Positions 18,969 to 27,786 of a stretch of DNA of 27,786 nt are shown one piece after another (within the stretch, counting starts at the first letter, position 1; each line of letters opens with the position of its first letter). The stretch covers positions 1 to 27,786 of the IMG/VR virus record IMGVR_UViG_3300036854_000130; one strand, written 5' to 3'. The notes under the pieces were generated by a model. It had not been told where the DNA came from, did not search any database, and was given only the letters and a program-made list of their open reading frames with translations. The DNA comes from a virus. The position numbers and the translations under genes were made by a program.

Positions 18969-19394
18969 TCAGGCGGCAGCATGCCTCGCGCGGTAGGCGG
19001 CGGTCCGGATGGCATTGCAGCGGCGGCAGTGACGCTCACCGTCGCGGGTGAGATAGGTATTCGCGGGCGTGAAAGCATGGCCTCGTACGCATGTCGTCTT
19101 GGCGGCATTCGCTGCGGCGCGCGTCTCGCCGCGCAAAAGATTGGTTCGTCCCGTGACGGCCTCGAGGTGCCTCGGATTGACACACCGACGGTTTCGGCAG
19201 AGATGGTCGAGCTCAAGCCCCACGGGGATTCGTCCTCGGTGCAGTTCATACGAGACGCGATGGGCCATCAGCTGCGGCGTACCCTTCCGGCCTCCGCTCA
19301 TCACGCCGTAGCCGCGGCATCGGCCACCCGTCCAGATCCAGCAGGTCGGAGTCTTCCGAACGCGCGGCCAGAAACGCTCGGCCACGGTCTTCAT
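18969..19394 (-). CDS. HNH homing-type endonuclease (antisense insertion)
   Basis: The minus-strand 141-aa product is a clear HNH_3-type nuclease: TCWIWTGG at the start, [11 protein letters not shown], then [20 protein letters not shown] with D63-H64, C66, C71, N73 and H76. A C-terminal zinc pair follows (C102...C123-x2-C126). Such genes are free-standing homing nucleases that spread by cutting alleles lacking them. It lies head-on inside the + strand lysis cluster, between the coiled-coil gene and the lysin. Codon choice is looser than in neighbours, supporting transfer. The opposite strand remains open but is not thought to be protein-coding. No intron sequence was identified. Confidence 0.92.
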
Positions 19395-23217: not shown

Positions 23218-23571
23218 ATGGATCGGGAATGCCTCGTGACCGGCGGGATGACGCCGACGATCGTCATCGGTGAGGCCGAGGCCGCGTGGGCGCGTCGTCT
23301 GCTCGCGGCGATGCCCTTCGGCGCGATGGCCCACTTCCGCAGCACCCAAAAGTCCGGGGAGCTGACCGTCCGCGACGTCCTCGACGATGTGGATCGACTC
23401 CGCGAGGTCCTCGTGGACCAGGCGGCCGTGGACCAGGCTCGGGATCAAGAGCTCTCCCAACTTCACTCTGACGTGGCGGCGGTCCGCCGCCTCTTCGGCG
23501 CCCCGGCCGCCCTGCATGGCTACGACTCTGGGGGGCGGCCGATCACTGTCCGGTCAGGAGCGTCGTCATGA
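23218..23571 (+). CDS. Unknown protein, 117 aa
   Basis: ATG 23218 has GGGGGA upstream; ATG 23203 in the same frame is an alternative. The product has a helix-strand N-terminus (TPTIVIGEAEAAWARRLLAA), then a coiled-coil-like region (VRDVLDDVDRLREVLVDQAA, QELSQLHSDVAAVRRLFGAP). The heptad-like leucines suggest an oligomerising protein. No family is recognised. It ends with ATGA overlap to the ParB-like gene, so co-translation is likely. Confidence 0.65.
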   Translation: MDRECLVTGGMTPTIVIGEAEAAWARRLLAAMPFGAMAHFRSTQKSGELTVRDVLDDVDRLREVLVDQAAVDQARDQELSQLHSDVAAVRRLFGAPAALHGYDSGGRPITVRSGASS

Positions 23572-25043
23572 CCGTCGTCCCGGAGCAGCTCGGGCTCATC
23601 GAGATCCCGCTCGACGACCTGAAGGTCCATCCCCACAACCCGCGCACCGACATGGGCGACCTCACCGAGCTCGCGGCGTCGATCAAGGAGCACGGTCTGT
23701 TCGAGCCGATCGTCGTCGTGCGCAAGAACGGCGGCTATCTCAACGTCATGGGCAGCCGGCGCGCCGCCGCCGCGCGCAAGGCGGGGAAAAAGACGATCAC
23801 CGCACGGGTCATGGATCTCGACGAGGCCAAGGCCGCGGCCGCGGCGCTCATCGAGAACCTGCACCGCAAGGACCTCAACCCGATCGAAGAGGCGCAGGGC
23901 TACGCGAACTACCTCGCGCTGACTGACGAGTCGCAGAAGACACTCGCCGAGCGCGTCGGCCGCGCACCGTCGACGATCGCGAACGCGTTGCGGTTGCTCA
24001 AGGCGCCGAAGGCGATCCAGGACGCGTTGCGTGCGCAACGGATCACCGCCGCGCACGTGCGCGTGCTGCTGCAGCTCAAGGACGATTCGCTCTTCGTGCG
24101 CGTGAACCTCGACCGGAGGGTGTCGTACCGCGGCGCCGACAAGATCGAGACGATCACCGTCGACGACCTGAGCTACCGCGTCCATGAGCTGAACCAGTCG
24201 TTCGAGAAGAGCGGGCCGCCGGCGATCGAGCGCGCGAAGGCCTATCTCGCCGAGGTCCAGAAGAACAACAAGGGCTACACGATCACCTGGTCGAGGGACG
24301 ACGTTCGCTACGGCGACGAGCTCGATCTGGTGAAGGCCCTCGGTGCCGCGCCGGCGAAGGTCGTCGGCGAGATCTGGTCGGGCAGTGCGAAGCGCCACGA
24401 CAAGGCCTGCGCGTGCCGCGCGTTCGAGCTCAAGCAGGAGTACGACGGCAGCTTCGAGATCCAGCGTGCCTGCATCGACGCAAAGGGCTTCGCGAAGTTC
24501 GGTGAGGGCGCGGTCCGGCGCGAGGGCCGCTATCGCGATCCCTACGCGCGACCGACGACGAAGGCCGGCACGGCCGCGTACGTCGCGAAGCGCGTCGACC
24601 AGTACCTGGCCGTGAAGAGCGGTGGGTCCTACGGACGGCGCAAGCCCGCGGACCCGATGTACCGCAAGCTCGTCGCCGGTGGCTGGGAGGCCGACAACGT
24701 CGCGCGGCTCCTGGCATACGCGCTCACCGTCGATCGCTGCGTGAATGTGGGGGCCGAGCAGCTCGAGCTCTACCGACGAATTCAGAAGATGGCGCCGGCC
24801 AAAGCGCGCGGGCTCGTGCTCGAGCACGCCGCGGCGATCGTGAACGGCGAGGTCCTGGCGACGACCGACGGCGGGGCGCGGCTCGCCGCGCGCGTCGAGG
24901 TCATGCGCGGCTTCGGGATCCCGGTCGGGCCGAAGATCGGCGAGCAGGCCGACGAGTACGTGCGCAAGGCCACACCGGCCGCAGGGGGGCGGCCGCGTCG
25001 GAAGCCGGCCGCCTCTCGCGCGAAGAAGAAGGCCAAGCGATGA
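23568..25043 (+). CDS. ParB-like DNA-binding protein
   Basis: The 491-aa product begins with a ParB/Spo0J-type domain: IPLDDLKVHPHNPRTDMGDL (13-32), LAASIKEHGLFEPIVVV, box GSRRAAAAR (62-70), ENLHRKDLNPIEEAQGY (96-112) and a helix-turn-helix KTLAERVGRAPSTIANALRL (124-143). In the ParB family the box and ENL motif bind CTP and the HTH binds a parS-like site. The rest (about 180-491) is larger than in chromosomal ParB, has a Cys cluster near KACACRAFE and an Arg/Lys-rich end. No ParA is nearby. Role may be partition, gene regulation or replication-associated; it is not decided. Coupled to both neighbours. Confidence 0.9.
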   Translation: MTVVPEQLGLIEIPLDDLKVHPHNPRTDMGDLTELAASIKEHGLFEPIVVVRKNGGYLNVMGSRRAAAARKAGKKTITARVMDLDEAKAAAAALIENLHRKDLNPIEEAQGYANYLALTDESQKTLAERVGRAPSTIANALRLLKAPKAIQDALRAQRITAAHVRVLLQLKDDSLFVRVNLDRRVSYRGADKIETITVDDLSYRVHELNQSFEKSGPPAIERAKAYLAEVQKNNKGYTITWSRDDVRYGDELDLVKALGAAPAKVVGEIWSGSAKRHDKACACRAFELKQEYDGSFEIQRACIDAKGFAKFGEGAVRREGRYRDPYARPTTKAGTAAYVAKRVDQYLAVKSGGSYGRRKPADPMYRKLVAGGWEADNVARLLAYALTVDRCVNVGAEQLELYRRIQKMAPAKARGLVLEHAAAIVNGEVLATTDGGARLAARVEVMRGFGIPVGPKIGEQADEYVRKATPAAGGRPRRKPAASRAKKKAKR

Positions 25044-27361: not shown

Positions 27362-27386
27362 TGTGTGGGCGGAAAGGACGAGCGGG

Positions 27387-27786
27387 TTGGCGGTGGCGAC
27401 CAAGGCGAGGCGAAAGCAATGCACCCGTGCGGGCTGCCGCGCGATCGCGGTGCTTTACGAGGACGTCTGCTTCGAGCATCTCGACTTCGACGAGGAAGGA
27501 GGTGGAAGGAAACGAACCTTTTCCCCCGAGGTGCGCGCGCGGATGAGCGCGGCGAGGCGGAAGGCGTGGGCCGACCCCGAGGTGCGCGCGCGGATGAGCG
27601 CGGCGAGCCGGAAGGCGCTGGCCGACCCCGAGGTGCGCGCGCGGATGAGCGCGGCGAGGCGGAAGGCGTGGGCCGACCCCGAGGTGCGCGCGCGGATGAG
27701 CGCGGCGCGCCGGAAGGCGCTGGCCGACCCCGAGGTGCGCGCGCGGATGAGCGCGGCGAGGCGGAAGGCGCTGGCCGACCCCGAGG
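27387..27786 (+). CDS. Zinc-knuckle protein with tandem 17-residue repeats (partial)
   Basis: The frame starts at TTG 27387, eight bases after AAAGGA; GTG 27393 is an alternative. The first part has C12-x4-C17 and C28-x2-H31 (QCTRAGCRAI...VCFEHL), similar in spacing to the knuckle of the HNH gene near 200. From residue 47, exact 17-residue units repeat: PEVRARMSAA-x-RKA-x-AD (x = R/S and W/L), five full copies and the start of a sixth before the window ends. The units resemble NUMOD3-like DNA-binding modules often joined to homing nucleases, but no nuclease domain is visible yet. Function is unknown; the gene is truncated by the window edge. Confidence 0.75.
   Translation, partial: MAVATKARRKQCTRAGCRAIAVLYEDVCFEHLDFDEEGGGRKRTFSPEVRARMSAARRKAWADPEVRARMSAASRKALADPEVRARMSAARRKAWADPEVRARMSAARRKALADPEVRARMSAARRKALADPE
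27525..27786 (+). repeat. 51-bp coding tandem repeat
   Basis: Units start at 27525, 27576, 27627, 27678, 27729 and 27780 (partial). Differences lie mainly in two codons (AGG/AGC/CGC and TGG/CTG), so the copies are recent duplications kept in frame. The array is contiguous with no unique spacers. Confidence 0.95.

Follow-up and report, generated by a model that had tools for sequence, protein, structure and literature searches.

The tandem array at the end of this phage contig belongs to a family of 17-residue repeats that evolve in concert while keeping variation at two residues, positions 10 and 14 of each unit. We infer both DNA binding and a code: with evenly divided confidence, we read the array gene of this tailed phage as encoding a modular DNA-binding protein that has no nuclease and in which these two residues would set the preference of each helix.

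A tandem array at the contig end

The window, the whole stretch of 27,786 bp analysed here, is an entire IMG/VR virus record, so the contig truly terminates in the array. Terminase, portal, protease, capsid, tape-measure and ParB-like genes of a tailed phage are present, and the array gene lies downstream of the ParB-like gene in a regulatory/replication module. The features are as follows.

23568–25043, + strand: ParB-like gene (PHROG ParB-like partition protein, E 2e-38)
27371–27379, + strand: putative ribosome-binding site GGAAAGGAC, judged from sequence, 8 nt upstream of TTG 27387
27387–27786, + strand: array gene, open frame without a stop up to the contig end
27420–27479, + strand: zinc-knuckle-like motif C-X4-C-X10-C-X2-H in the translation, zinc binding putative
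27480–27527, + strand: linker, acidic then basic, LDFDEEGGGRKRTFSP in the translation
27528–27578, + strand: unit 1, EVRARMSAARRKAWADP, positions 10/14 R/W
27579–27629, + strand: unit 2, EVRARMSAASRKALADP, positions 10/14 S/L
27630–27680, + strand: unit 3, EVRARMSAARRKAWADP, positions 10/14 R/W
27681–27731, + strand: unit 4, EVRARMSAARRKALADP, positions 10/14 R/L, with arginine codon CGC, elsewhere AGG
27732–27782, + strand: unit 5, EVRARMSAARRKALADP, positions 10/14 R/L
27783–27786, + strand: sixth unit, first four bases GAGG, cut by the contig end

The TTG at 27387, with its GGAAAGGA-like ribosome-binding site, is a plausible start for the array gene, GTG 27363 and GTG 27393 being alternative candidates; the C-terminus of the protein is missing, cut by the contig end. 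Five complete 51-bp units (27528–27782) follow one another in a single frame and read EVRARMSAA-x-RKA-x-ADP. TRF delimits the array at 27524–27786 (period 51, 5.2 copies, 94% matches) with a score of 477, against 107 for the next independent array in the window, and identity at a lag of 51 is 200/212 in the array and at most 99/212 elsewhere. An earlier note on this DNA had described five complete units running off the window behind a C/C/C/H knuckle, and both the units and the putative knuckle are indeed there; C-X5-C-X7-C-X2-C or a similar motif also precedes the array in the relatives L005, L142 and L050. The note called the repeats exact, which they are not. Fifteen of the 17 codons are identical in all five units and the differences are confined to codon 10 (AGG, AGC, AGG, CGC and AGG in units 1 to 5, R or S) and codon 14 (TGG, CTG, TGG, CTG and CTG, W or L), a restriction to two positions that the note had missed.

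Elsewhere in the window, at 18969–19394 on the minus strand, opposite to most genes, lies an HNH_3 endonuclease gene (Pfam 51 bits; phrog_826, E 1.5e-51), which is probably a free-standing homing endonuclease.

Variation at positions 10 and 14

Relatives came from 2.9 million viral contigs, scanned both at the protein level and by DNA pattern, and 22 phylogenetically non-independent arrays (that of the window and those of other phages) were kept for comparison. Their selection fixed some of the other positions but left positions 10 and 14 free and synonymous sites unaffected, and a collection anchored on the ADP motif alone gives the same peak at 10 and 14. Position 10 varies within 18 of the 22 arrays, as does position 14, against 7 of 22 for position 6 and 0 to 5 for every other position. 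The alternatives are nearly always R or S at position 10 (45 and 47 occurrences) and W or L at position 14 (52 and 46), including in unrelated phages, and all four pairs are common (SL 28, RW 27, RL 17, SW 16); uniform arrays are those of L122 and L126, both with three RW units. Unit order shows neither clustering nor alternation, with the caveat that order may be unreliable in arrays assembled from short-read metagenomes.

The same residues are spelled by differing codons in different phages, so that the alternatives are maintained at the protein level. Arginine and serine are CGC and AGC in most phages, AGA and TCA in L142, and AGG, AGC and CGC in the window, while L021 uses AGC, CAT and CGT for S, H and R; leucine at position 14 is written as TTG, CTG or CTT in different phages.

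In other 17-residue arrays, a good number of which belong to nuclease genes, variation is spread over many positions, chiefly 6, 10, 2, 13 and 14, and synonymous differences are larger. In sister 17-residue arrays, position 14 alternates between H and N (ALHADP/ALNADP), which is a second two-letter alphabet. These occur in L104/L145, L058, L050 and Burkholderia phage Maja CPT_Maja_110 (L187:662-1468), that is, in nuclease-free proteins as well as in a GIY-YIG nuclease.

Homogenisation of the units

At codons 10 and 14 the amino acid varies in 34 of 41 columns, compared with 9 of 191 fourfold synonymous sites (Fisher p about 1e-25, a value that serves only as a guide since the counts are non-independent). 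Pairwise differences within arrays amount to 56% at codons 10 and 14 and 2.9% at fourfold synonymous sites, whereas between arrays the fourfold synonymous difference is 49.5%. The earlier note took the near-identity of the units as a sign of recent expansion, and this homogenisation within arrays agrees with it. The fifteen other unit positions are largely conserved among phages whose synonymous sites are about 50% different.

The orthologues L114 and L127, which have in common an HTH N-terminus (62% identity) and the WVP C-terminal domain described below, allow the process to be followed between two phages. Codons 2, 12, 13 and 17 differ synonymously between them in all four compared units, indicating that changes have spread through each array. 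Both arrays remain mixed at codons 10 and 14, but the order differs; in L008 and L009, whose upstream sequences are 92% identical, the code is the same in the three comparable units. Homogenisation should erase such mixing, yet it persists, which argues from direct counts that selection keeps positions 10 and 14 mixed.

Relationship to NUMOD3 and domain organization

The window units match Pfam NUMOD3 (PF07460) at 25.8 bits, above the cut-off of 20.4, as do relatives L004 (25.8), L116 (28.1), L142 (22.9) and L073 (22.1); L122 scores 17.0 bits, below the cut-off, and no NUMOD3 profile match was reported for L114, L006 and L075. The best PHROG for the window and eight relatives (whole or partial frames) is phrog_22215 (E 1e-16 to 1e-7), which describes arrays generally and not the two-position pattern. 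The earlier note had likened the units to nuclease-associated repeats. The NUMOD3 match bears this out for the repeat itself, but no recognisable nuclease domain (GIY-YIG, HNH or other catalytic) was found in the scanned full-length relatives L004, L114, L116, L122, L142 and L073, which are thus not ordinary homing endonucleases.

The closest parallel is the DNA-binding part of I-TevI, which consists of a zinc finger, a minor-groove helix and an HTH (PMC1564403) in an enzyme that doubles as a transcriptional autorepressor (PMC2988022). The unit pattern E-x-R-x-[RK]-[MI]-S-x-A-x-K aligns to NUMOD3, the I-TevI NUMOD3 helix (1i3j) could be aligned weakly to the consensus (E 0.22), and the zinc finger that precedes the I-TevI helix (PMC1564403, PMC2988022) has its counterpart in the knuckle-like motif before the window array. 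The window family resembles this part of I-TevI, but with several copies of the helix and without the nuclease. It departs from NUMOD3 homing endonucleases in the nuclease-free architecture of the scanned full-length relatives, in its strict 17-residue tandem units, in the two-residue variation and in the homogenisation at the DNA level. The GIY-YIG arrays of Burkholderia phage Maja CPT_Maja_110, L061 and L049 have the same 17-residue period and ADP-E helix break, with variation concentrated on positions 6, 10, 2, 13 and 14; unlike the window family, these proteins have a GIY-YIG domain, and their units differ at numerous positions rather than just two, and at many synonymous sites as well.

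Partner domains are diverse. Knuckles occur in the window, L005, L142 and L075, HTH domains in L114 and L127, and L122 has a GcrA match above cut-off; the HTH and GcrA-like domains are N-terminal. The C-terminal domains of array proteins are exchangeable, and one is also found on phage proteins without arrays. This small domain, PxWVPxDLxxxFxxxAxxxGEEAAAxxxRRLKxEM, has been swapped among array proteins and phage proteins of HTH- or DnaA-like type, its carriers being L147, L152 and L154 and also L114, L127, L006, L073 and L111. A distinct Cys-rich C-terminal motif, CxxCxxGNCLACxGxxCxCPC, follows the array at L100:3536-3850 and L020:1-281.

Among gene neighbours, only clear ones were counted, since GC3-based gene calling around the arrays is unreliable in GC-rich DNA. 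They include a primase (L073, overlapping), a DnaA C-terminal domain protein (L127), ParB and an MT-A70 methylase (L006), integrases (L008, L051) and HTH regulators (L122). Array genes overlap adjoining genes by a few bases in L073, L122 and L051. We infer a role of the array protein in phage regulation or replication.

Predicted structure

From the single sequence of the window protein, AlphaFold2 predicted five helices of 15 residues, separated by breaks of two residues (pLDDT 92-96); confidence is low for the knuckle. In this model positions 6, 10 and 14 would fall at i, i+4 and i+8, on one side of the helix. In the L114 model, three N-terminal helices precede the helix array, which is followed by two helices at the C-terminus; the model's top fold matches are weak and mostly to HTH domains of regulators. 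Searches of the PDB by sequence and by fold (Foldseek) returned no solved structure resembling the array, while the best matches among predicted viral structures were intron or GIY-YIG nucleases by name and an SP-15 resolvase (E about 1e-3 to 6e-3).

Unit number, assembly breaks and distribution

Comparison of relatives gave about 2 to 11 units per array, the variable length that the earlier note had suggested. Neither the frameshift or pseudogene nor the lack of repeat variation that it had set against its own proposal was seen: the gene shows no frameshift, its frame is kept from phage to phage, and variation is present in the arrays. Its suspicion that the repeat caused the assembly break also holds up, as, of 23 contigs with an array, at least 8 stop inside it (the window, L005/L006, L007, L009, L019, L020, L021 and L051). 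G005 and G013 have the array at both contig ends, which suggests circular genomes opened within it. Contig 3300045912_000162 (L051) carries two array genes with a common C-terminal domain, 5 and 11 units, and differing codes.

A tandem MSAA pattern found no real member in 84,980 species genomes, and a profile that recovered all 14 phage controls found no array in the 385 genomes sampled from the class of a Bradyrhizobium genome or in the 398 sampled from its phylum. Cultured phages yielded nuclease-type arrays only, at about 30-43% identity, and the plasmids searched yielded no array. The open literature searched contained no description of NUMOD3 arrays of the 17-residue two-position kind, an absence that is no proof of novelty. 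Two repeat-mining papers (PMC11417379, PMC5472282) leave arrays of this kind unmentioned. STAR, MOON, pTERF and NORD (PMC11417379) belong to the same general class of mined repeat DNA binders, but their description has neither NUMOD nor 17-residue units; the TALE-inspired screen (PMC5472282) tested only 30-43-residue repeats and set composite ones aside. Array genes are overlooked because assemblies break inside them.

A proposed modular DNA-binding protein and its rivals

In design the arrays recall TAL effectors and TALE-like proteins, whose near-identical tandem repeats likewise have their differences concentrated in a pair of residues; the resemblance concerns architecture and evolution and not homology. 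TALE units comprise 33-35 residues with two helices and a loop that reads the major groove, whereas the phage array has a 17-residue period with one predicted helix per unit. There is no sequence match between the two, and the Foldseek PDB search of the array returned nothing. By analogy with I-TevI, whose NUMOD3 helix is related, each helix would lie along DNA, in the minor groove, with basic residues 3, 5, 11 and 12 holding the backbone and the residue pair 10/14 setting the preference of the unit, so that unit order would spell the target as the repeat-variable residues of TAL effectors do. Knuckle, HTH or GcrA-like ends may anchor the array or link it to transcription or replication. Recombination, by turning over units, would alter the array's length and spelling while selection would hold the remainder of the unit fixed. 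The fuller version, a compact natural DNA-reading system in which each 17-residue helix reads a short DNA step through its R/S-W/L pair (four unit types) and phages re-spell the target by shuffling, we put forward tentatively, as possible rather than probable.

We attempted to read such a code from the genomes of six phages, the array itself left unmasked, using 24 mappings, 7 spacings and 2 directions. The best score was equalled by 1 of 265 derangements. On five held-out arrays the best one-base-per-unit mapping ranked 7 to 13 of 13 and so did not replicate, a null result from a low-power test.

The R/S and W/L alternatives could instead serve helix packing or protein contacts. If the protein bound DNA without sequence specificity, as a backbone clamp or condensing protein, they would adjust affinity or the packing of helices against one another, and the number of units would set the footprint through the length of the array. 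Strongly basic helices, a variable unit number and the failure of any code-to-base mapping to replicate all fit this explanation, but it predicts that uniform arrays should be common, while 18 of 22 keep variation at each of the two positions despite homogenisation; moreover, unit order is irregular rather than alternating, and partner domains of HTH and GcrA-like type suggest roles at specific sites. We consider it rather unlikely. A protein- or RNA-binding solenoid (a scaffold, host-factor decoy or anti-defence protein) with positions 10 and 14 as its hypervariable face in an arms race is a more doubtful proposition still. Two-residue hypervariability on a conserved helical scaffold is known from ankyrin-type and other repeat binders, and diversifying selection would fit a conflict; however, the motif matched, NUMOD3, is a DNA-binding one, K/R content is high and the gene neighbours are those of DNA replication and transcription.

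The closest relatives with an annotation are the NUMOD3 arrays found in GIY-YIG homing endonucleases, which could be taken to mean that the array is a homing endonuclease remnant, or else a neutral, functionless repeat expansion. The conservation of the fifteen other positions across phages with such diverged synonymous sites makes this very improbable, as do the short overlaps with neighbouring genes and the varied but intact N- and C-terminal domains. Variation at codons 10 and 14 might also stem from targeted mutation, through a hot spot or a retroelement-like process, rather than from selection, and many of the changes are indeed single transversions at fixed places (AGC/CGC, TGG/TTG). Yet the same alternatives are reached elsewhere by two- or three-base changes (AGA/TCA, AGC/CAT, TGG/CTG), outcomes are almost limited to two residues per site, a non-exhaustive search saw no template repeat, and the close relatives L008 and L009 keep a stable code in three units, so that we give this explanation very little credence.

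If residues 10 and 14 do set unit binding in a modular DNA-binding protein, the arrays would represent a phage-evolved repeat code with a unit about half the size of that of TALEs. Even without a code, they would explain a phage regulatory protein family of no assigned function and are a clear natural example of arrays homogenised everywhere except at two sites.
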